Source: Myxococcales bacterium
Lineage (GTDB): Bacteria > Lernaellota > Lernaellaia > Lernaellales > Lernaellaceae
DNA: 63,835 bases
Direction of reading: 5' to 3'
Assembly (NCBI GenBank): GCA_012517325.1
Contig: JAAYVF010000036.1
Span: forward strand, 1 to 63,835
Shown here piece after piece: positions 6,641 through 44,235 of the stretch. Every line of letters starts with the position of its first letter. Positions within the stretch are counted from its first letter, which is position 1. The notes below the pieces were generated by a model that made no database searches, was not told the DNA's origin, and worked only from the letters and a program-made list of their open reading frames with translations. The position numbers and the translations under genes were made by a program.

Positions 6641-6994
6641 TCAACAATAGGTCTGCACGCATTCCGCGGCGCAATCGCCAGCGGCACTGCAGTCGGCATA
6701 CTGGTTCATACAGGCGCACTCGCACGAAAGATCGCCCGCGGAATCGGCACAATCGTCGGCAAAGGCGTCGTAATCATCGAGACAATCCGCGACGGTCGGG
6801 TTAAAACCGCAATCGACCGCCCAGTCGCACATGCTTTGCACATTGCAGGCCACGTTATTGTTGCCGTTGGTGGCATTGTCATCTTCGGTCGTGTCGTCGT
6901 TGTCGTCGTCATCGTCATCATCGCCGCAGGAAACGGCCGTCAAACCCGCGCCGAGAACAAACACCAATACCATGACCCAACAAAAGGTTTTCAT
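6641..6994 (-). CDS. Small Cys-rich, Asp-rich lipoprotein
   Basis: This lipoprotein is 117 residues from the ATG at 6994, with GGAGGG six bases before it. A hydrophobic signal ends in AVSC, followed directly by GDDDDDDDNDD. The mature part of about 70 residues contains twelve cysteines spaced through an acidic chain, an even number that would permit six disulfides. No family is recognised. It is the first of a run of minus-strand genes (to 2340), but 58 bases separate it from the SGNH-like gene, so co-transcription is only possible. It may be a disulfide-rigid surface peptide or a metal binder. Confidence 0.65.
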   Translation of the reverse strand: MKTFCWVMVLVFVLGAGLTAVSCGDDDDDDDNDDTTEDDNATNGNNNVACNVQSMCDWAVDCGFNPTVADCLDDYDAFADDCADSAGDLSCECACMNQYADCSAAGDCAAECVQTYC

Positions 6995-7114
6995 TTTTCC
7001 CTCCGTCTTGAATGGCTGCGATCCCAGCAAAACACTTCAGGCGGTCGAAGGCAAGTTTATTCATCTTCCCTGATCCGGGAATAAGGGATGGAAGGTAGGC
7101 CGGCAACGACGGCC

Positions 7115-9601
7115 TTAGCGACGGTCGGCGCGCGGGAAAATTTTTCGCAATTCCACCGCCCGCTGTTCGGCTTTTTCCCACATGCGCAGATACGCCTCGG
7201 CCGAGCGAAAGAGCGGCTCGATCGCCGCGTCCCCGGCATCGGCGCGCGCGTCCTGTATCAATTCCGGCAACAGACCGATGTCCACCAGGCCTTCGGTATT
7301 GAAATCGACGGCACGATTGCCGAGGAAGGGCGCGGTGAACTCCACGTCGCCGGCGTAGGAGGAAAATGGGTAGGTGATCGGATTCGGTTGCTCTTTGGCG
7401 CAGGCGCCCGCGGCGAATCGGCCGCCCGGCGCGCCGGCGAAACCATTGAGATCGAAACCGAAACCGACACCCGGATAGCCGCCCAGGGATTCGATCAAGG
7501 CCACGCGGTCCGTCAAGCCGCGCACGGTCGCTCCCGGGTCATCCGGATCCTGGCAACGGCCGAGCCCGATGGTGGCATAGCCGCCCACCGTGTAAGGCCG
7601 TCCGGCCCAGACCCGCCCGTGGGTCGCGGCCGCCGGATAGTCGTATTCTTCCAGAATTTCGTAGGCTCGCCGGTACGACCACGAGGGGAAGTGGTCGACC
7701 TCGATGATCATCCCGCGCGCCATCAACCCCGCCAATAACGCTTCCCCGTAGGGCGTGATCGTCGCGTTCTGGCACCAGTCGCCGCTGATCGACGGCTGCA
7801 GGAAACGGAACATGTAACGAAGAACCAAGGGCACCGGATGTTCGCCGAAACCCGACATGTCGACCGGCGGATCGGCAAGGTAGTCGTCGCGCGCCTGCAA
7901 CAGGCCGCCGAAGAATATACCGCCGTTGTCCCAGCCCCGGTTCTGGCCGTCGGTCGGGCAATCCTGCGTCATGTTCGTCCAGTGGCCGCTATTGAAGAAG
8001 TTGCCGCCCTCGAGAAAGCCGCGGTTGCCGTCGCCGGGCGAGAAGCGATTGTCGTATTTGTGCACGGGAAAAACGGCGCGGATGCCGCGGGCGTAGTAGA
8101 CGTCGAGTTGTTCGTCGATCCAGGCCTCATCGCAGACCGGGTCTTCGGGACGCGGCGTAAGCCGGCAACGGAAGGGGCTGGAGGTTTCGATGCCGAGCAC
8201 CACCGCCAGCTTGCCGGCGGCGATCACCTCGCGGGCCTCGGCCGGGCTGCGGACGATACGGAACCAGCCCAGGCCTTCTCCGCCGGCCTGCGCGTCGATG
8301 TAGCGTTGCATCGCCCAGGCTTCGTCGATGATCCGGTCGACCGAGGTCATATCCTCGCAATCGTAGCGGCTGGGCTCGATGCCGCTGGCGACCATCAGGC
8401 TGCAGATCACGAAATCGCTCGTCGCATGCGTGACCATCAGTCGCAGCCCCGCCAGCCACGCCCGTTCGAGCCAACGGTAGTACATCGTCTGATGGGTCGA
8501 GCGATGGGGCGCGTCGGGCCAATCGGTAAACTCGGGCCAGCCGGCCGTCGCATGATTGTCCACGGGGAGTTCGCCGAGGAGAAAGGCGACGGCCAGCGAC
8601 AACACGGTCGACGGGTCCAATCCCAGGGAGTCCCAGACGTAGCCGAGGAAGTCATGGCGGCCGTTTTCGCCGTGCACCACGCTGCAGTCGCCCAGAGCGT
8701 GCGTGACGCCGAGACGGTGAAAGGTTCCGCCGTGAAACAATCCCCCGCCGAAGCTGAAATTCGTCAGCAGATGCTCGTGCGCGTCGGCGATGCCGTAGAG
8801 CGTGCCGTCCGCGAAAGTGGTGCGGGTGATGGCGCCGGCGGCGTCCAGTGACATTTCCGGATAGGTCGCGCAGCCGTCGACCGGCACCAGCGACAACGCG
8901 ACGGGGTTGCCGCCGAGCCCCAGCGGGCCGAGCAGCAGGTCGTTCCGGCGGTTGCGGAACTGGTACTGGGACGGGTGGCCTTCGAAGGGTTCGAGAATCC
9001 ATTCGGCACCGGAGATGTAATCGTCCTCGACCCGCGTGACGTCGGATTCAAGGACTTTGGCGCGCCGCAGCGGCCCGTTGTCGCTAAGAAAGTAGGCTTG
9101 CTCGGCGTCGTAAAACAAATAGGTCGTCAGGTCGGAAGGCTGCAGATAAAAGTGCGCGGCCGCGTCGGCATCCGGCACGAAGGCAAAGGCGGTCTCGGAA
9201 ACGGCGGCCAGCCATTTCCCGTCGTCGGTCTGTACCGCGGCGCACAGTCCGCCCAAACCTTCCAACGCGACTTCATCGTCATCGGTTGCGTCGTCATCGG
9301 TTGCGTCGTCGTCGGTCGCGTCGTCATCGGTCGCGTCGTCATCGGTCGCATCGTCGTCGGCCGCGTCGTCATCGGACGAGTCGTCATCGGTGGCATCATC
9401 GTCGGCCCCATCATCGTCGGCCGCGTCGTCGTCCGTGGCGTCGTCGTCGGGCGTGTCGTCGTCGGCCGTCGCATCGTCATCGTCGAGCGGATGATCGGCC
9501 TCAGCGGAATCGTCGCCGGCGGAATGGTCGGACCCGCAAGCGGGCAGCAGCGCGATCGCCAGCAAAAAGAAAGGTAACAGGCTAAAAATCGTTTTTTTCA
9601 T
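7115..9601 (-). CDS. Asp-repeat lipoprotein with a peptidase M19 (membrane dipeptidase)-like domain
   Basis: This lipoprotein is 828 residues from the ATG at 9601. The signal peptide MKKTIFSLLPF... ends in LLPAC, and about 100 residues of Asp-rich pentapeptide repeats (DDDAT and variants) follow. A segment of roughly 130 residues with alternating aromatic and beta pattern (HFYLQPSD, QYQFRNRRND) resembles a beta-trefoil or lectin-like module. The catalytic part carries the expected zinc-site signatures of the M19 family in order: DAHEH, VVLGIETS, IEVDHF, ATHGR and GFGFDLNGF, where the family has HxD, Glu, His, His and Asp. A large insertion lies between the first two motifs. It is likely a surface hydrolase of dipeptides or related amides. 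Confidence 0.65.
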   Translation of the reverse strand: MKKTIFSLLPFFLLAIALLPACGSDHSAGDDSAEADHPLDDDDATADDDTPDDDATDDDAADDDGADDDATDDDSSDDDAADDDATDDDATDDDATDDDATDDDATDDDEVALEGLGGLCAAVQTDDGKWLAAVSETAFAFVPDADAAAHFYLQPSDLTTYLFYDAEQAYFLSDNGPLRRAKVLESDVTRVEDDYISGAEWILEPFEGHPSQYQFRNRRNDLLLGPLGLGGNPVALSLVPVDGCATYPEMSLDAAGAITRTTFADGTLYGIADAHEHLLTNFSFGGGLFHGGTFHRLGVTHALGDCSVVHGENGRHDFLGYVWDSLGLDPSTVLSLAVAFLLGELPVDNHATAGWPEFTDWPDAPHRSTHQTMYYRWLERAWLAGLRLMVTHATSDFVICSLMVASGIEPSRYDCEDMTSVDRIIDEAWAMQRYIDAQAGGEGLGWFRIVRSPAEAREVIAAGKLAVVLGIETSSPFRCRLTPRPEDPVCDEAWIDEQLDVYYARGIRAVFPVHKYDNRFSPGDGNRGFLEGGNFFNSGHWTNMTQDCPTDGQNRGWDNGGIFFGGLLQARDDYLADPPVDMSGFGEHPVPLVLRYMFRFLQPSISGDWCQNATITPYGEALLAGLMARGMIIEVDHFPSWSYRRAYEILEEYDYPAAATHGRVWAGRPYTVGGYATIGLGRCQDPDDPGATVRGLTDRVALIESLGGYPGVGFGFDLNGFAGAPGGRFAAGACAKEQPNPITYPFSSYAGDVEFTAPFLGNRAVDFNTEGLVDIGLLPELIQDARADAGDAAIEPLFRSAEAYLRMWEKAEQRAVELRKIFPRADRR
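9270..9495. repeat. 15-bp tandem repeats encoding DDDAT pentapeptides
   Basis: The reverse strand of this stretch encodes ten or more imperfect copies of a five-codon unit (Asp-Asp-Asp-Ala-Thr, with Ser/Ser, Gly/Ala or Thr/Pro variants) inside the M19-like lipoprotein. Asp codons alternate between GAT and GAC, so the copies are not identical at DNA level. The period points to slippage or unequal exchange followed by drift under selection for acidity. Confidence 0.8.
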
Positions 9602-9794: not shown

Positions 9795-10601
9795 ATGAGG
9801 CGAGGTTTCCGGAATTTTTCGATCTTCATCCTTTGCCTGCTTCCGTTCGCGCTGCTCGACGGTTGCGACAGTCGCGATGGAGAGCAAGGGAACAGCCAGG
9901 CGGACGACGGCGGGACGGATAACGACGACCGGGACGCCCAGCCGGAATGTTGGGAAGCGGGCGGTGACGCGCCAACCGCCGATGTCCTGACGCCCCGGCA
10001 ATCGCCGGAATACTATGTCGAGCAGAGCCTGAAGTATTTCGACACCCTCGATTCCTACGCCGATCCGCGCTCGATCCCGAACTATTCGGAACTGGTCGCC
10101 CGCTGGGAATGGCCGCCGTGGCTCAAGCTGACCGGGCTCGGCGACGAGGCCATGATCTGGATCGATCTGGCCTTGAAACTGTATCCGACCTCCGTCGCGG
10201 AGCGCGATTGCCGCGCGTTTCCCGTGCAACCTTTCGGCCGCTGCCATGTCGTTTTTTACTACCAGGACAGGCCTTGTTCGATCTATGAAGAATTCACTTT
10301 CAACGACCGGGGGGAGATGACGTTTATCGAGGCCTGGTCGGACATTCCCGGGTTGTTGCCGACGAGCGATCCGAGCGATTACTGGGCGGAAGACGCGGCG
10401 GCGCATCGGTTGTCGACCAAAATCCCGGGTCTCGGGACCGCAACCGGACTCATCGACCTGAACGGCGATTGCCTGCGCGAAGCGGCGCGAACCGACGCGG
10501 AAGTCGCCGACTTCGCGACCCGCGCCCGGTATCCGATCGTCTCCTGGATGGCCGAATTCCTGCGGGTCGGCGACGACATGATGCGTCTGGGCTGCGAATG
10601 A
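9795..10601 (+). CDS. Lipoprotein of unknown function with acidic linker
   Basis: This protein is 268 residues from the ATG at 9795, with GGAG six bases upstream. The upstream in-frame start at 9780 would add only five residues. The signal peptide ends in LLDGC, with Asp at +2 of the mature chain. A short acidic linker (ADDGGTDNDD) follows, milder than in neighbouring lipoproteins. The mature domain has several Cys (ERDC, FGRC, RPC, NGDC) and no motif I recognise. It is divergent from the M19-like gene and convergent with the NAD(P)H-binding gene. Confidence 0.6.
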   Translation: MRRGFRNFSIFILCLLPFALLDGCDSRDGEQGNSQADDGGTDNDDRDAQPECWEAGGDAPTADVLTPRQSPEYYVEQSLKYFDTLDSYADPRSIPNYSELVARWEWPPWLKLTGLGDEAMIWIDLALKLYPTSVAERDCRAFPVQPFGRCHVVFYYQDRPCSIYEEFTFNDRGEMTFIEAWSDIPGLLPTSDPSDYWAEDAAAHRLSTKIPGLGTATGLIDLNGDCLREAARTDAEVADFATRARYPIVSWMAEFLRVGDDMMRLGCE

Positions 10602-10620
10602 CGATCCGCGGATCGCCGCC

Positions 10621-11259
10621 TTACCCGTTGCTGATCGCCGGCGCCTTGTAAAGCCATTCGGTTTCTTCGAGCTGCGCGAGTAGAAAATCCGCCAGCGCCT
10701 CGCGTGAGAGCCAGAGGAGTTTGATCCGCGGATTGCCGATGAAGCCGGCCACCGCCGGCCGTTTTGCCGGCCGATTCGTCAGTAGGGGCAAGCGGACGAG
10801 GATCCAGTCCAGCGAACTGGTCATGATGACCTTGGCGGTTTCGCTGATCTCATGGTGGACATTGCCGGCGACGGCTTTGAAAACCTTTTCCTCCAACCAG
10901 AACGAAAAGCGAAAGCGATCCCCGGGGTCCACCACGCTCGGCGGCACGGTCGCGATCAACCGTTTGACACCGTGTTTTTCCATCGCCGCCACGATGCGCC
11001 GCATGCCGTCCGCGATCGGCGTGCCGCTGAATTGGCCCTTGGGCCCAAGCAGGCTGATGACCGCGCCGGCTCCGGCTACGACCGTAGCGATCGCCGACGC
11101 GTCGCTCAATTCGCCGACCGCGACCTGAAGCTTTGCCGACCGGATTTGGAGTTTGGCGGGATGGCGGACGTAGGCGTTGACTTCATGACCGGCGGCCAAC
11201 GCTTTTTCCACGAGGAGCAGGCCGGAAGCTCCCGTGGCGCCGAAAACGACGAGCTTCAT
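10621..11259 (-). CDS. NmrA/atypical-SDR NAD(P)H-binding protein
   Basis: This protein is 212 residues from the ATG at 11259, with GGAG upstream. The N-terminus MKLVVFGATGASG is the GxxGxxG dinucleotide site of the atypical short-chain dehydrogenases. AYVRHPAKL follows at the end of the second strand, where an Arg fits NADP(H) choice. VISLLGPKG and the length fit NmrA-like or biliverdin-reductase-B-like proteins. There is no clear YxxxK. It is probably a cytoplasmic redox or sensor protein. It stands alone between a convergent lipoprotein and a 263-base gap. Confidence 0.75.
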   Translation of the reverse strand: MKLVVFGATGASGLLLVEKALAAGHEVNAYVRHPAKLQIRSAKLQVAVGELSDASAIATVVAGAGAVISLLGPKGQFSGTPIADGMRRIVAAMEKHGVKRLIATVPPSVVDPGDRFRFSFWLEEKVFKAVAGNVHHEISETAKVIMTSSLDWILVRLPLLTNRPAKRPAVAGFIGNPRIKLLWLSREALADFLLAQLEETEWLYKAPAISNG

Positions 11260-26669: not shown

Positions 26670-27887
26670 TCACTCCAGCAGATCCCGCCAGGTCGGATCC
26701 TCGTCGACCAGTTGGCCGATCCAGTCGTAGAGCGTCGTTCCGCGAATGGCCCGGTGCGGCCCGCCCGGCAGCAGGAATTCGTAAGTGGTGTGGGTGTTGC
26801 CTTGCACGAAAAACCGCTTGAAACGGCCCGGATAATCCGCGTGGATTTCGTCGGTCACCGCCATGAGGGTTTCCTCGAAACGGTCCGGATCCATGCCCAG
26901 GAACCAGGTCGAGATGATCCAGTCGTGATACGAGGAAAACAGGCCGATCCGCAGTTGCCGATCGTATTGCAGATACAACTCGTAAATGTAGGTCTGTACC
27001 GTGCCGCCGCATTTCGTGCAGTCGTCGGGGATTTGAATGTTCCAGGCGTCCTTGATCACTTCCCAACTCGCGAGATCGTCCGGGTTCCAGAAGCCGGTGC
27101 CCGAGTCGTTCATGATGTAGGTGTCGGTGTCCATGTACTGCGATTTGACGATCGCCCAGCCGAGGTAGGTGCCGTATCCGCCGGCGCTCGAGCCGGAGAC
27201 CAGAATCTTGTCGGGATGCGGAAAATACTTGCGCATCAGCGTCACCGCCGCGCCGACCTGCCGGAGCCCATGGTGGTAAGCCCACCGGCCGTTTTCCATC
27301 AGTTCGTTGTCGCCCATATGAATGCTGTGATCGCAATGCGGCACGTAAATGAAACTCCAATTGCGCAGCGGATTGTCCTCCTCGAACGATTTGAAACCCA
27401 TGTCCCACGGATAATCGAGCGGCACCGCAAAGCCGCCGCCGGGCCACGTCGCGCCGCCGCCTTCCATGAACAGCATCACCTTGTTTTCGGTTCCCGGATG
27501 AATGGCGACCTGCATTTTCGCGCCGAACGTGCAGCGGCAGTCGTCGGTGCTGTAGGTGAAATAGGTGTAGCCGTTATGCCCCGGGGCGCTGGATTCGGGC
27601 TCGATCCCGATGTACCGGTCGACATCCATCTTGTCGAACAACTCTTGCAGCTTATCCAGGTTGTCGTTGTCATCGTCGTCGTCGCCGGAATCGTTGTCGT
27701 CGTCGGTTCCACCGCCGCCAGAATCGTCGTTGTCGTCGTCATCGCCAGCGGCGGCATCGTCATCATTATCTTGAGCCTGCCCATGACCTGATCCGGGGTC
27801 GTCGTCGTCGCCGCAAGCGTTGAAAACCAGTAAGGGAAAAATGAGGAATAAAAAAAGGACCAGGGCCGAATGGAAATTGGCTTTCAT
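26670..27887 (-). CDS. Asp-rich lipoprotein, pectin acetylesterase/NOTUM-like
   Basis: This lipoprotein is 405 residues from the ATG at 27887, with TGAGGA upstream. The signal ends in VFNAC, followed by GDDDD and about 55 residues rich in Asp and Gly. The hydrolase part has FMEGGGATW (oxyanion region), VPHCDHSIHMGD, and VSGSSAGGYGTYLG with the nucleophilic Ser, the signature of the pectin acetylesterase/NOTUM family; NTHTTYEF is a candidate His region. It is probably a surface carboxylesterase that removes acetyl or fatty acyl groups. It sits inside the radical SAM locus, between the GT-C protein and the asparagine synthase gene. Confidence 0.78.
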   Translation of the reverse strand: MKANFHSALVLFLFLIFPLLVFNACGDDDDPGSGHGQAQDNDDDAAAGDDDDNDDSGGGGTDDDNDSGDDDDDNDNLDKLQELFDKMDVDRYIGIEPESSAPGHNGYTYFTYSTDDCRCTFGAKMQVAIHPGTENKVMLFMEGGGATWPGGGFAVPLDYPWDMGFKSFEEDNPLRNWSFIYVPHCDHSIHMGDNELMENGRWAYHHGLRQVGAAVTLMRKYFPHPDKILVSGSSAGGYGTYLGWAIVKSQYMDTDTYIMNDSGTGFWNPDDLASWEVIKDAWNIQIPDDCTKCGGTVQTYIYELYLQYDRQLRIGLFSSYHDWIISTWFLGMDPDRFEETLMAVTDEIHADYPGRFKRFFVQGNTHTTYEFLLPGGPHRAIRGTTLYDWIGQLVDEDPTWRDLLE

Positions 27888-28112
27888 GACATCCTCACCC
27901 AATCGTCAAGCCGTTATTAAAGAAACACGCCTTGGATGAACTCGTCCCCGACCGCGAAATCCGAATCATTCCGCCGCTGCCGTCGTGACAATGATCGATG
28001 AAAGTCCAAGAAGGGCTGATTCATGGTACATGAAAACGGCAAAAATAAAAGCCAAAATGTGTGGTATTTGAGCGTTTTGGAGTGGAATCGTTGGGTGGTC
28101 GCGGCAACCGTT

Positions 28113-34765: not shown

Positions 34766-36955
34766 ATGGCACTGTGGAAACAAGCCTGCCTGTTGGCCCT
34801 ATTAATGATTGCGGCGATTTTCGTCTTGAATGCCTGCACTTCCGATGACGACGACGATGATAACGACGCGGCGTCGGGCGACGATGACGACGACAACGAC
34901 GACGCGGCGACCGATGACGACGATGAAACCCCGCCGTCCGGACGCGTACCGACGACCCTGGACATGAATTACCTGCCGGTGCGCCAGGGCGACCAATGGG
35001 TGATGGCGATCGGCCACGGCGACCAGCGGGTCGTGCGCAACGACCTGGGCGTCTCGCGGCCCACCGAAAACCTGTCGAATCGCGCGCGGCTTTCCCTGGC
35101 CTATTTCTTCACGGCGACCGACTTGCACATCGGCGACGAAGAATCGCCGACCCGGATGGACTTCTTCGAGTCGAAACACATTTTCATGGGCGCGTTCGAC
35201 GCCTCGAGCCGGCCGCAGTACGACCTGTCCGCGCACGCCATCAACGCGCTGGCTAGGACGGCCAACCGCATCCAAGTCGACTACGGCCGCGATTTCGACT
35301 TTGCGCTGCTGCTCGGCGACAACGCCGACAATTCGCAGACCAACGAACTGGCGATGATCGTCGACGTCCTGGACGGCGGCGGCCTGCTGACCGACGAGGG
35401 CTGGTGCCGCGTCGATTCCGGCGACCTGGACATCAATCCGAACACCGGCCGCGACCGGGGCGAGCGGAATTTCGGCTTCCAGGAAACCGATGGCGAGGGA
35501 AATATCCTCAATAACTACTACCGTCCCGACTGGCCGAACTCGAACGCCGATTTCACGTGCGGAGGCTTGCGCCGCTCTTCCGGCGATCCGCTGCCGTGGT
35601 TCTCGGCCATCGGCAACCACGACGTGATCAACATGGGCACCTTCGATCCCATGGGGCCGCTGACCTTTTACCGTCCCGATGAATACGTGGCGGCGACCTC
35701 GCCCTTCGGTTTCGAAACCGGCCTTCCGTCGGCGATCGCCTACTGGAAGGAAAATCCCGATCAGAAACTGCGGATTGCCAACGGCATTCTGGGCTTGCCG
35801 TTGGACTGGGGTTCGGTGTTTTCGCTGGTCGAGAAAATCGGCCTGCTGGGCGATTACGAGGCCGACCTCAATGCGGACTTCGTGCTGATGGATCTGCTGC
35901 ACGACACGCCTTCGCAGTCGAACGACGACGGCGTGCCGATCACCGCCGACGAAACGCGCGCCTACATGGACACCGCCGGCGTGATGCAGGTGCTGTACGA
36001 AACCGGCCATGCACTGTACGAGGACCGCAACGACGACGGCGAGGTGACCCCGGACGACGGCGGCTTCTATTCCTTCGACCTGGCCGACGTCAGCGGTCGG
36101 GCGATGCCGGTGCGGTTCGTCGTGCTCAACACCACCGAGAAGCTGCTTTTCCCGCAAGGCGGCGTGACGGCGGCGCAACTCGCGTGGCTGGAACTCGAAT
36201 TGTCGCGCGCCGAAAAGGACCGCGTGCTGGTGGTCGTGGCTTCGCACCACCAGGAAAGCGACACGATCGCGGGCGGCGACGAATTGGCCGCCACCTTGAG
36301 GCGGCACCCGAACGTCATTTGCCACCTGGTCGGGCACGGGCACGACAACCTGATCACGCCGCACCGCGGCCCCGACGGCGATCCCTACCGCGGCTACTGG
36401 GAAATCGAAACCCCCTCGGCGACCGACTTTCCGCAGCAATGGCGGATCGTGGAAATCGTCGACAACCGCGACGGCAGCGGGTCGATCTTCCTGACGAACT
36501 TCGATCACTTCGCGCTGGAGGGCGACGACGCCGACATCCTGTCGGACCTGAGCCGCGAACTGGCCTTTGAAGATACGCTCGCCGACGGCTATCACGGCAA
36601 CGCGCCGTTCGGCCATCGCGGCACGCGCCAGGATCGCAACGTCGAGTTGGTTTTCGCCATCCCGACCGAAGTGCTGCTGAAATTGCAGGACATCGAGGAC
36701 GACGAGCCGGTGACCTCGGTAGAGGAACTGGGGCACGGCGCGGCGATCCCGGAAAAGATGGCCACCCAATCGACGGCAGACGAATCGTCCTTCCGGCCGG
36801 CGGCGCCCCGGCTGAACTTCGCGGGTTTGTGGCTGCGGCTGGTCGCCTGGGCCGAAGCGAACGATCCGGACGGGCTGGGCCGGCGGTTGGCCGAATTGCG
36901 GCCGTTGACCGCGGATGAGCGGGCGCGGTTGCGGGATTTGGGTTACCTGAAATAA
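34766..36955 (+). CDS. Asp-rich lipoprotein metallophosphoesterase
   Basis: This lipoprotein is 729 residues from the ATG at 34766. The signal peptide ends in VLNAC and a tract of about 35 residues of mostly Asp follows. The catalytic domain holds the five calcineurin-like blocks in order: TDLHIGDE, LLGDNADN, GNHD, ASHHQE and GHGHDN. Two metal ions would be bound and a phosphoester or pyrophosphate cleaved outside the inner membrane. A long insertion separates the second and third blocks. The C-terminal 70 residues are helical and end in RARLRDLGYLK. The FadL-like and Ig-like genes follow on the same strand. Confidence 0.82.
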   Translation: MALWKQACLLALLMIAAIFVLNACTSDDDDDDNDAASGDDDDDNDDAATDDDDETPPSGRVPTTLDMNYLPVRQGDQWVMAIGHGDQRVVRNDLGVSRPTENLSNRARLSLAYFFTATDLHIGDEESPTRMDFFESKHIFMGAFDASSRPQYDLSAHAINALARTANRIQVDYGRDFDFALLLGDNADNSQTNELAMIVDVLDGGGLLTDEGWCRVDSGDLDINPNTGRDRGERNFGFQETDGEGNILNNYYRPDWPNSNADFTCGGLRRSSGDPLPWFSAIGNHDVINMGTFDPMGPLTFYRPDEYVAATSPFGFETGLPSAIAYWKENPDQKLRIANGILGLPLDWGSVFSLVEKIGLLGDYEADLNADFVLMDLLHDTPSQSNDDGVPITADETRAYMDTAGVMQVLYETGHALYEDRNDDGEVTPDDGGFYSFDLADVSGRAMPVRFVVLNTTEKLLFPQGGVTAAQLAWLELELSRAEKDRVLVVVASHHQESDTIAGGDELAATLRRHPNVICHLVGHGHDNLITPHRGPDGDPYRGYWEIETPSATDFPQQWRIVEIVDNRDGSGSIFLTNFDHFALEGDDADILSDLSRELAFEDTLADGYHGNAPFGHRGTRQDRNVELVFAIPTEVLLKLQDIEDDEPVTSVEELGHGAAIPEKMATQSTADESSFRPAAPRLNFAGLWLRLVAWAEANDPDGLGRRLAELRPLTADERARLRDLGYLK

Positions 36956-41156: not shown

Positions 41157-42413
41157 TCAGTTGCCGCAGCCGTTATCGTCGTCGTCATCGTCATTGTCGT
41201 CGTTGTCGTCATTGTCATCGTTGTCGTCGTTGTCGTCGTTGTCATCATCGTCGTCGTCGGCCGCGTCGTCATCGGCGGTGTCGTCGTCGTCCCCGCCGTT
41301 GAAATCGTGGTCAAGGTCGAATTCCTCGATCACCGTATCGTCGGGACGGTGCACCTCGACATGAATCACGGTGCCGTCGATCTCGATGTAGGAGAAATTG
41401 TTGGTTTTCTCGCAGGTGACCGTCCAATCCCGCGGGTCGCAACTGTAATGCCGCGAACTCGAACAGCCGGTCACCAGATAGGTAAGGCCGTTCACCACCG
41501 AACGCTGGTAGTTGTGGTCGTGCCCCGACATGTACAGATCGATGCCATACTCCTGGAAAAGCGGCACCATCGCTTCGCGAAACGCCAGGACGTTCGCGTC
41601 CTCGCCGTGGTTGGAGCAGGAAAACGGCGGGAAATGCGCATGGACAATGCAATGTTGCACACTGGGCTGGCTTTTGGCGTAATCGAGTTGATCCACGAGC
41701 CAATTGTATTGTTCCGAGCCGGAATGGTAGGGGATGTCGACATTCAAACTGATGAAATAGGTGTTGCCGTATTGGAAGGCATACGTGGACGGCGAGGGAG
41801 TCCCGTCGCTCATCGGATTGGACCAGTACAAAGCGAAATGCGACTTGCCGCCGGGATAAAGGTCATGATTGCCCATGACCGGAAAATACGGCGCATCGCC
41901 GGCCAGCAGATCGGTGACGCTCCAGTATTGATCCCATTGTGAAGCCAAAAAGGCGTAATCGACCTGATCGCCGTTGTGCAGGATGAATTCGGGCTCGTAG
42001 GGCAGAATGGTTTCGACGATGTCATGGTAGGGCGCGATGAAGCCTTGGGTGTCGCTGATGACCACAAAATGAATCGGTTCGGCCGGGTCCGGCGCGGTGA
42101 GGAACGAATGGATCTCGCTACTGTCGCCGCCGCTGCTCACGCGATAGTAGTAACGAGTGCCGGTTTCGAGGGAATCCAGATCCGCCTGGTGCACTCCGTC
42201 GCCGGCCACTGAAGCGGCGCTTTGCTCCATGCTTTCGGTCGTGCCGTATTCCACCGACCCGCTCGGATCCAGCGAACCCCATTTGATGGTGATGGAATGA
42301 TCCGTGACGCCGGTCAACCAGGGGCCGTAATCGATGCCGGCCCAGACGTTGGATACAATCAGTGACAAAACGAAAAAAGCAGCGGCGAAAATCGCTTGGC
42401 GGATATTTTTCAA
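41157..42413 (-). CDS. Purple-acid-phosphatase-like secreted enzyme with C-terminal Asp/Asn tract and GCGN end
   Basis: This enzyme is 418 residues from the ATG at 42413, with a cleavable signal peptide ending near VWA and no lipobox. A fibronectin-like N-terminal domain (GPWLTGVTDHSITIKWG) is followed by the metallophosphoesterase blocks ISDTQG, NGDQVDY, GNHDLY, HAHFPP and GHDHNYQR, the standard plan of purple acid phosphatases. The last 45 residues are almost entirely Asp and Asn and end in DDDNGCGN. No membrane helix or basic tail follows. A Cys behind a poly-acidic arm at the C-terminus mirrors the N-terminal lipoproteins of this window. Confidence 0.8.
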   Translation of the reverse strand: MKNIRQAIFAAAFFVLSLIVSNVWAGIDYGPWLTGVTDHSITIKWGSLDPSGSVEYGTTESMEQSAASVAGDGVHQADLDSLETGTRYYYRVSSGGDSSEIHSFLTAPDPAEPIHFVVISDTQGFIAPYHDIVETILPYEPEFILHNGDQVDYAFLASQWDQYWSVTDLLAGDAPYFPVMGNHDLYPGGKSHFALYWSNPMSDGTPSPSTYAFQYGNTYFISLNVDIPYHSGSEQYNWLVDQLDYAKSQPSVQHCIVHAHFPPFSCSNHGEDANVLAFREAMVPLFQEYGIDLYMSGHDHNYQRSVVNGLTYLVTGCSSSRHYSCDPRDWTVTCEKTNNFSYIEIDGTVIHVEVHRPDDTVIEEFDLDHDFNGGDDDDTADDDAADDDDDDNDDNDDNDDNDDNDDNDDDDDDNGCGN

Positions 42414-42843
42414 AGCGCCCTCCTTTTTAAAACGCTAACTATGCACTCGCTAAACACTAAAGGATTTGAAACAATTTTCAATAGTTCGCAAGGGGAGGGG
42501 CGTTCTCAATTGAATGGCAATATTGCGATAGATTTGCTGAGTTCAGAGCAGATGATGACTATATGGAATGCCATTCCCGAAGAATCGGGAACGGTGCGAC
42601 TCTTAAATATTATTGTTGAGATACAAAGCCATTTTTCTTGACAAGCCGGTCATTCGTCATGGTAGATTTTATCAGGTCAATGCGCGAGGAAATCGCTTCG
42701 CGGCGTTGATGCGGTTTCCTTTCGGATGGCAGGGTGATTTTCTCCTCAGTGGTACAACAAATGAAACTATGGGATCGTCTGAACGCTTTGATAATGTACT
42801 TTTACGTGGAAATTACCAAACACTACGAGGAAAGGGGATATGA
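42414..42843. other. AT-richer leader upstream of the interrupted kelch gene
   Basis: The 430 bases separate two divergent genes and have visibly more A and T than the neighbouring genes. A frame from 42613 ends in TGA one base before the kelch ATG, with no site or recognisable product. A TTGACA at 42638-42643 followed after 19 bases by TAGATT (42663-42668) could be a promoter. Nothing else is recognised. Confidence 0.45.
42638..42668 (+). promoter_or_regulatory. Possible promoter for the kelch-repeat gene
   Basis: TTGACA (42638-42643) is a perfect -35 box. TAGATT (42663-42668) after 19 bases is a weak -10 with a long spacer. The kelch start is about 175 bases downstream. Confidence 0.3.
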
Positions 42844-44235
42844 ATGAAAAAGCTTCTCTTTTTGACCGTTTTTGCGGTCCTGGTCGGCGCCACATTGGCG
42901 CAAGCGTCATTCACCGCCGGCCCCACTTCGCCGGTCGCGGCATCGCGGCCGGGCGCGGCGGTAGTGGGCGGCAAAGCCTATGTCATGGGTGGCGAAACCG
43001 CCAAGGCATACTCCAACCAAATTCACATTTTTGATTTCGCGGCGAATACCTGGTCGACCAGTGCGGCGACCATGCCGACCGGCCTCAGCAACATTTGCGT
43101 CACCTCCTACGACAACAAAATCTATGTCGTCGGCGGCTACACCGGCGCGACCGGCAGCAACACACTCTAAATTTACGACATCGCCGGCGATTCCTGGAGT
43201 TCCGGCGCCACGCTGGCCACTGCCAAATACGGCGTGGCCTGCGCCGCTTACGACGGTTACCTCTATGCGCTCGGCGGCACTCCCGACGGCAGCACTAGTC
43301 TGACCGACAACGCCATTTACGACATCGATGGTAATTCCTGGTCCACCGGCACCGCGATCCCGTACGGCTTCATGTGGGGCGCCGCGACGGCACTGGCCGA
43401 CGGAACGATCTGGATCGCCGGCGGGTACACCACGTTCGGCACCGAACTTGCCACCGTTGAAATTTATGATATCGCCGGCAACAGTTGGTCGGCGGGCACC
43501 TCGCTGAACACCGGCCGCGCCGGCCTCGGTCTGGCTACCGACGGCGAGACAGTCTATACCTACGGCGGCGGTTGGTACACTTATCTGACCACGGTCGAGT
43601 ATTACGACGACTCCAAGGGTTCCTGGGTCGCCTTCAGCGATCTGCTCAACACCGGCCGGCGGACTTTCGGCTTTGATTTCGGCAGCGGCTTCATGGTGGC
43701 GATCGAAGGCTACAACGGCTCCTATTCGAACGCCTTTGATTATTATGCCTTCGAGCCCACGGTCGCCTCGATCAACCCGCCTTCCGGCGAGACCGACGAT
43801 GCGGCCGTCGCCGTGACCATTCTGGGCACCAATTTCGTCGACGGCGAAACGACGGTGACGCTTTCCGGTCCGGTCAGCAAGGCCGATATCGAGGGCACCA
43901 ACGTGGTCGTGGCCAACCCGGGTGAATTGTCCTGCGACTTCGATCTGACAGGTGCGGCCACGGGCGGTTACGACGTGGTCGTGACGACCCCGGCGGGCGA
44001 GGATACCCTCGCGGCGGGCTTCGAGGTGACTGAAGCGGCCGACGATGACGACGACGACAACGACGACAACGACACCGGCGACGACGACAACGACGACAAC
44101 GACGACAACGACACCGGCGGCGACGATGACGATACGGGCGCTGACGATGACGACAACGACGATGCGGCGGCCGATGACGACAACGACAGCGGCGGCGATG
44201 ATGACGATGACGACGACAGCGGTTGCGGCTGCTGA
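42844..44235 (+). pseudogene. Kelch-repeat/IPT secreted protein interrupted by one in-frame TAA
   Basis: One reading frame of 464 codons runs from the ATG at 42844 (AAAGGGG seven bases upstream) to 44235 and has a single TAA at codon 109 (43168-43170). The sister repeat downstream reads TVEIYDIAG, while here the frame reads TL-stop-IYDIAG, so one G-to-T change of GAA is enough. Up- and downstream parts form one kelch series (MGGETAKAYSN, YVVGGYTG, YALGG, WIAGGYTT, YTYGG), then an IPT/TIG domain (VASINPPSG) and an Asp/Asn tract ending in SGCGC. A signal peptide (MKKLLFLTVFAVL) is present. It could be a true nonsense mutation, an assembly error or a read-through site. Confidence 0.8.

Follow-up and report, generated by a model that had tools for sequence, protein, structure and literature searches.

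The window, that is, the whole 63,835-nucleotide stretch of DNA that was analysed, contains two neighbouring genes whose products end in an Asp/Asn-rich arm and a short cysteine motif (Table 1). One encodes a purple-acid-phosphatase-like enzyme in which Pfam recognises Metallophos and purple-acid-phosphatase N-terminal domains; its C-terminus reads DDDDDDNGCGN before a TGA codon, and the nearest homologue (genome G005, 68% identical) has a GCGC end in place of GCGN. The other, of the kelch/IPT type, ends in DDDDDDDSGCGC, i.e. in SGCGC followed by TGA. As assembled, the kelch tag stands behind an in-frame TAA in an otherwise open frame; since homologous repeats within the protein continue through the position of this codon, the likely cause is an error of assembly or a gene that has begun to decay recently.

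A first-pass annotation of this DNA had described the two as neighbouring secreted proteins with Asp/Asn tails closed by GCGN and GCGC: both tails are real, but the second has to be read with the upstream TAA in mind. Its further observations were borne out, namely that neither protein has a lipobox and that the lipoproteins of the window show the reverse order, with the Cys first and the Asp arm after it. Three such mirror cases are present.

Table 1. Tagged genes and mirror-case lipoprotein genes of the window
Feature	Positions	Strand	Basis
Lipobox (VSC) with GDDDDDDD arm immediately after it; without C-terminal arm	6641..7036	-	sequence
Lipobox-like FNAC, then GDDDD arm; without tag	26670..27902	-	sequence
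Lipobox (LNAC), then TSDDDDDD arm; without tag	34766..36955	+	sequence
Secreted metallophosphatase, purple-acid-phosphatase-like, tagged, 418 aa, TTG start	41157..42413	-	ORF; PF00149 2.2e-20, PF16656 3.3e-9
Phosphatase terminal tag GCGN, then TGA	41160..41171	-	sequence
Phosphatase Asp/Asn arm, ~40 residues	41172..41291	-	sequence
Phosphatase signal peptide MKNIRQAIFAAAFFVLSLIVSNVWA, cleavable type, without lipobox Cys	42339..42413	-	sequence; common to homologues
Kelch gene, 5' part with signal peptide, closed by in-frame TAA at 43168-43170	42844..43170	+	ORF, sequence
Kelch gene, remainder in unchanged frame, bears tag; 1,065 bases	43171..44235	+	ORF
Domain resembling NCBIfam choice-of-anchor Z (NF058597), directly N-terminal of arm	43756..44028	+	23.4 bits, below curated cut-off 30; E 4.5e-5
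Kelch protein Asp/Asn arm, ~60 residues	44041..44217	+	sequence
Kelch terminal tag GCGC, then TGA	44221..44232	+	exact pattern match

The tag in the genome and in the phylum

We scanned the genome to which the window belongs (5.25 Mb, 134 contigs) for the DNA pattern D(D/N/S/G)5-GCGC-stop. There were 23 exact matches versus none for the reversed control and, when up to three mismatches were allowed, 84 versus none. The regions around the pattern matches, about 0.7 Mb in all, yielded 79 tagged candidates, a few of them spurious; the genome encodes some 75 secreted and mostly unrelated proteins with an Asp/Asn arm, [G/S/A]-C-G-C and a stop codon. The exact GCGC end is found in 57 of the 79 candidates, the others having SCGC, CCGC, ACGC, GCGN, GCGD, GCGF or GCSC, and over the 40 residues preceding the last four the arm consists of Asp to 49% and of Asn to 9%. 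A signal peptide was called in 65 of the candidates with an in-house hydropathy rule (simple in-house rules, not SignalP, were used for signal peptides and lipoboxes alike), and five others are cut by contig ends. Upon sequence comparison, the tail is the sole part that these mostly unrelated proteins have in common: the Pfam domains found among 70 of them include peptidases M14, S8, C25 and C1, phosphatase, kelch, PKD and FG-GAP, and several resemble NCBIfam models whose names refer to an exchangeable or a particular type of anchor, namely choice-of-anchor Z and T and myxosortase-dependent and rhombosortase-dependent M36 (below the cut-offs where shown).

The tag, which could have been a peculiarity of the two window proteins, is also present in all seven genomes of the phylum that we examined. 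Six of these have 7 to 23 matches each to the strict pattern. Genome G004, which belongs to another family and at first appeared tag-free by the strict pattern, encodes at least four GCGC-stop proteins as well as GCCG, GCCE and GCGG ends. In G001 (99% complete) the GCGC-stop pattern has 45 matches versus 15 in the control, and proteins with both the arm and GCGC-stop number 14 versus 0. Searched with one codon set across 84,980 species, the strict pattern gave a single further record, a MAG of the FEN-1099 lineage, which we take to be the former name of Candidatus Lernaellota, a name that exists as a taxonomy entry. Small tagged paralogues stand in tandem in two genomes, five in G006 (L141:3289-7130) and two in G001 (L139:5502-7232); these arrays are a lineage-specific expansion.

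The end of the chain and the conserved cysteine

The invariance of Cys(-3) in the collected set of tagged genes is a product of the regular expression, and the unbiased figure comes from a separate test in which an Asp arm was required at -9 to -6 and the final five codons were left free. Among 54 arms that end in a true stop codon, 51 have a Cys within the last five residues, with Cys at -3 in 47 cases and at -1 in 42; in a control that had Trp (TGG) right after the five free codons, a Cys was seen in 1 of 29. Since the position -3 is occupied by Cys in 47 of the 54 unbiased cases, Cys(-3) is the near-invariant residue, and the final Cys is dispensable. The residue preceding Cys(-3) is G, S or A, and the last Cys can be replaced by A, N, D or F. 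The second Cys has been lost repeatedly while the first was kept, also within conserved families (GCGN, GCGL, GCGD, GCGF, GCCG); two arm proteins end in SGGCS-stop and one in SGGCN-stop. Homologues that are no more than about 28% identical still share the Cys, whereas the arm and the final residue drift. The expectation that the terminal Cys does not vary freely is thus correct for Cys(-3), but not for the residue that actually ends the chain.

As claimed in the first-pass annotation, the chain simply stops after the motif: over the 35 codons behind the stop, no helix followed by a basic end was seen in any frame (0 of 79 candidates in each). This bears on the possibility that the tag is an artefact, i.e. 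that low-complexity GAY repeats merely run into stop codons or that a TGA is read through into a helix. The arms are indeed repetitive, and TGA ends 64 of the 79 genes. However, TAG or TAA serves in the other 15, no helix and basic end lie behind the stop in any frame, and the Trp and reversed-pattern controls gave 1 of 29 and 0, respectively. With these stop-codon, frame, Trp and reversed-pattern controls we regard the artefact as refuted and its residual probability as negligible. Reading of TGA as Sec or Trp is rejected as well, because three stop codons serve and no helix follows.

Exchange with the N-terminal lipoprotein anchor

Homologues of the window phosphatase were gathered by homology and not by the tag. 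Eighteen of the 26 readable members (one of the 18 a 5'-truncated fragment) combine an ordinary signal peptide with a C-terminal arm and a Cys near the end, and the other eight have a lipobox immediately followed by an Asp arm and a C-terminus devoid of arm and Cys. In a second, unrelated enzyme family, also collected by homology, 20 members have the C-terminal tag versus 6 with a lipobox and Asp arm. None of the 52 members of the two families (38 tagged, 14 lipobox) has both anchors or neither. Trees give one anchor switch per family in both cases, and therefore the counts of 18 vs 8 and 20 vs 6 are non-independent samples for which we claim no p-value. The exclusivity thus goes back to two independent anchor exchanges, each of which was then retained over deep divergence in several genera.

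The two arrangements also correspond in detail. The median gap between the Cys and the nearest DD is three residues in the tag and two in the lipoproteins, a small residue precedes the Cys in both, and among all retrieved genes Asp arms are found almost solely beside the Cys of a tag, a lipobox or a MYXO-CTERM-like tail. The mirror-image idea of the first-pass annotation is strongly supported by this alternation of lipobox plus arm with arm plus Cys: since related proteins in two families bear either the tail or the N-terminal lipid anchor, and not both, the tail is probably a mirror-image surface anchor. Outside these families, an apparent lipobox and a C-terminal tag occur together on rare occasions (L175:2677-6546 and L183:3946-6882); such proteins may have an anchor at either end of the chain, or their lipoboxes may be mis-called.

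Alternatively, the C-x-C end might be a metal-binding, disulfide or redox element, with the acidic arm binding calcium and no anchor involved. CGC does end most members, and acidic arms can bind cations. This reading nevertheless leaves the exclusivity with the lipobox unexplained, and it has to contend with the repeated loss of the second Cys, conserved families included; the dispensability of that residue argues against C-x-C metal binding, a disulfide and a Rab-like double modification alike. We consider a metal or redox role very unlikely.

Relation to MYXO-CTERM-like tails

In M. xanthus the MYXO-CTERM signature has the generic form GCGC, in which the Cys is invariant, and myxosortase cuts behind the signature (PMC11980579). 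The contrast with MYXO-CTERM drawn in the first-pass annotation is valid for the tag itself, which has no helix, but tag-bearing genomes carry MYXO-CTERM-like forms with a helix too, e.g. DDDDDDDDGCGCVIGGG..LRKKR and DDDDDGCGCSVTSGK..LRRSR. Such full tails (DDDDDDGCGC, helix, RKKR) are few in these genomes; among them are DDDDDDDDGCGC-VIGGGADGAGLAFAMLALGLAALAVSLRKKR in the window's own genome and DDDDDGCGC-SVTSGKASGFALPVGMLAIGILAFGLGLRRSR in G003. Because tails with the common arm, the motif and a helix occur in tag-bearing genomes, the tag reads like a MYXO-CTERM-like tail whose gene ends at the signature. In the own genome the MYXO-CTERM model TIGR03901 gives only 13 matches at E<=1, of which those inspected have a helix and none coincides with a GCGC-stop site on its own strand. 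With a limit of E<=0.01, at most one tagged protein out of 70 matches this model.

The full tails with identical arm and GCGC would be expected if the tag were a decayed MYXO-CTERM signal that has lost its helix and kept GCGC as a functionless relic. We find this highly improbable: the tagged form outnumbers the full form in its own genome roughly 10:1, and in seven genomes and three families the Cys has survived deep divergence, where a relic would drift.

Full tails of a JDVT-like kind (DDDSGGCS-VGRGDPLLSLLGAMAAIGLVALAVSRRRER) are found as well. Two, borne by an adjoining protein pair at L112:7666-9400 (G000:C6), occur in the own genome (SGGCSVGRGDPLLSLL..RRRER); the tails of the pair are near-identical, SGGCSV.RGDPLLSLL..RRRER, and no CPBP protease was seen adjoining it. 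L111:6923-8913 (G000:C122:68.9-70.9 kb) is a tandem cluster of small proteins, four in number, whose tails are MYXO-CTERM-like; one of them has D8-GCGC before the helix.

Candidate enzymes and partners

Every phylum genome examined has at least three Lgt genes, which form three main clades. The housekeeping enzyme is presumably that of clade I, whose gene belongs to an ileS-lspA-lgt operon; Lgt-II is present in all seven genomes and Lgt-III in six, being missing from G004, which has a third Lgt gene of the E. coli type in its place. The residues that correspond to R143, Y235 and R239 of E. coli Lgt are kept in all three clades, and the essential E. coli H103 is replaced by Tyr in all three Lernaellota clades, the housekeeping one included (L085-L104; E. 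coli numbering). In view of this Tyr and of the inactivity of E. coli Lgt H103Y (PMC4728403), the three clades are, by sequence, a divergent type of Lgt. N146 and E151 of the Lgt signature motif are Cys in all three; at these sites, H103 included, the E. coli type is found only in G004:C8.

A co-distributed protease or transferase had been suggested as a partner; none tracks the tag. Lgt-III had to be rejected as the dedicated enzyme on co-distribution, because G004 lacks it and bears at least four GCGC-stop proteins along with CCG and CCE variants. The profile of Lgt-II is uninformative, since this clade and the tag both occur in 7/7 genomes. We saw no conserved tagged neighbours of Lgt-II or Lgt-III; the one exception, a reprolysin-like protein that bears the tag and is encoded immediately upstream of Lgt-III in G002, is at about chance level. 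Since neither profile nor neighbourhood singles out one Lgt, we treat the Lgt step as a hypothesis. For a CPBP sorting protease, G001 (99% complete) gave no PF02517 match at E<=0.001; tag-rich as this genome is, such a protease would not be needed as a partner, which is in keeping with a signal that requires no cutting. The T2SS secretin GspD is present in all seven genomes.

Two side observations concern gene order. An unusual IspH (LytB, PF02401)-UbiA (PF01040) fusion gene directly follows Lgt-III in three genomes (L117:6285-8030(-), L118:10106-11920(+) and L122:6061-8084(-); domains shown for L117). The housekeeping operon has two tandem lspA genes (ileS-lspA-lspA-lgt) in G000 (L106:7453-8055, 8070-8567) and apparently in G003 (L123:9644-10207, 10204-10719), and only one lspA in G004 (L115).

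Discussion

In this study we have characterised a C-terminal tail that recurs on dozens of secreted proteins of Candidatus Lernaellota. The reading of the tail as a C-terminal anchoring or processing signal is supported by sequence comparison, and we strongly infer an anchoring role. On balance we favour the view that the Asp/Asn arm and [G/S/A]-Cys-Gly-Cys-COOH constitute a helix-free, phylum-wide anchoring signal whose Cys would be modified after export, most likely by Lgt-type lipidation; for lipidation of the tag Cys, too, we would put the chances at somewhat better than even.

In such a mechanism, Sec would export the tagged protein and the signal peptide would be cut. Cys(-3) would then receive a covalent modification in the periplasm, most likely a diacylglyceryl group in thioether linkage (S-diacylglycerylation), by an Lgt-type enzyme that would read the small residue and the Cys, as proposed for the MYXO-CTERM Cys, for which Lgt is the leading candidate enzyme (PMC11980579). 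The protein would be displayed at the surface, with the Asp arm acting as spacer and export determinant. No sorting protease would be needed, since the chain has from the outset the end that processing would give a MYXO-CTERM protein. Canonical Lgt works on membrane-held precursors, and the main difficulty for the Lgt step is the capture of a tail that is unheld in the membrane after signal-peptide cleavage.

An unheld tail fits soluble-phase ligation at the surface, and a single sufficient Cys (GCGN, GCGD, GCGF, GCGL) fits any one-thiol linkage; the Cys might thus anchor the protein without lipid, through a bond to a glycan or an LPS-like polymer of the surface or through a disulfide shared with another molecule of the envelope. 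We hold this to be unlikely, given that homologues alternate with lipid-anchored forms in which an identical arm lies equally far from the Cys and that the helix-bearing cognate tails belong to the MYXO-CTERM class, which is thought to be lipidated (PMC11980579). Staying with lipidation, we tentatively entertain a more specific possibility, that a dedicated Lgt paralogue acts, Rab-like, on the C-terminal Cys of dozens of exported, folded or soluble surface proteins, without a membrane-embedded precursor or a protease and interchangeably with N-terminal anchoring.

Checked against the NCBIfam library and the available papers, a helix-free C-terminal anchor tag has probably not been described before. 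The bacterial C-terminal sorting tags that we considered all depend on a helix and a basic end for retention of the precursor at the membrane; a signal stopping at the Cys would show both to be dispensable and would uncouple anchoring from proteolysis. The tag also isolates the question of what modifies a MYXO-CTERM-type Cys: with the protease step absent, the transferase can be sought directly among the three Lgt paralogues. Furthermore, some 75 proteins per genome become annotatable as surface-anchored, and a short, genetically encoded tail of this kind might be used to anchor recombinant proteins via their C-terminus.

The tag shares the logic of C-terminal sorting of unrelated proteins with GlyGly-CTERM/rhombosortase, PEP-CTERM/exosortase and LPXTG/sortase, but these systems have a motif of their own, a helix and a basic cluster, none of which follows the Cys of the tag. 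With Rab/CaaX prenylation it has in common a Cys that is the last residue or lies close to it. Eukaryotic Rab proteins, which have CC or CxC at the C-terminus, require no proteolysis; they are cytosolic and carry isoprenyl groups, whereas the tagged proteins are bacterial and exported, and one Cys is enough. The bacterial lipobox can take the place of the tag, and the tag its place, in two families, but the lipobox is N-terminal and processed by LspA to make Cys the +1 residue, while the tag is C-terminal and its arm lies upstream; unlike canonical lipoproteins, the 18 and 20 tagged homologues of the two families have no lipobox, with rare exceptions elsewhere. A small residue before the Cys and an Asp run two to three residues away recall the combination of lipobox and acidic LES in Bacteroidota, where an acidic run beside the lipidated Cys suffices for export to the surface, SDDDD having this role in Bacteroides fragilis (PMC5080379). 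JDVT-CTERM/MrtJ resembles the tag in its Cys signature GGCS, which the two SGGCS-stop proteins share, but continues with DP..helix..RRR where these proteins stop. The closest likeness is to MYXO-CTERM: a linker, a G-C-G-C signature with an invariant Cys, and dozens of diverse signal-peptide proteins per genome. The tag differs in having neither a transmembrane helix after the Cys nor an Arg-rich end, as the chain stops at most a few residues past the Cys, and it differs from MYXO-CTERM/MrtX in that the tag-rich G001 has no detectable CPBP protease. By helix, basic end and model match the tag thus falls outside MYXO-CTERM, and it probably works like the processed form of a MYXO-CTERM protein.
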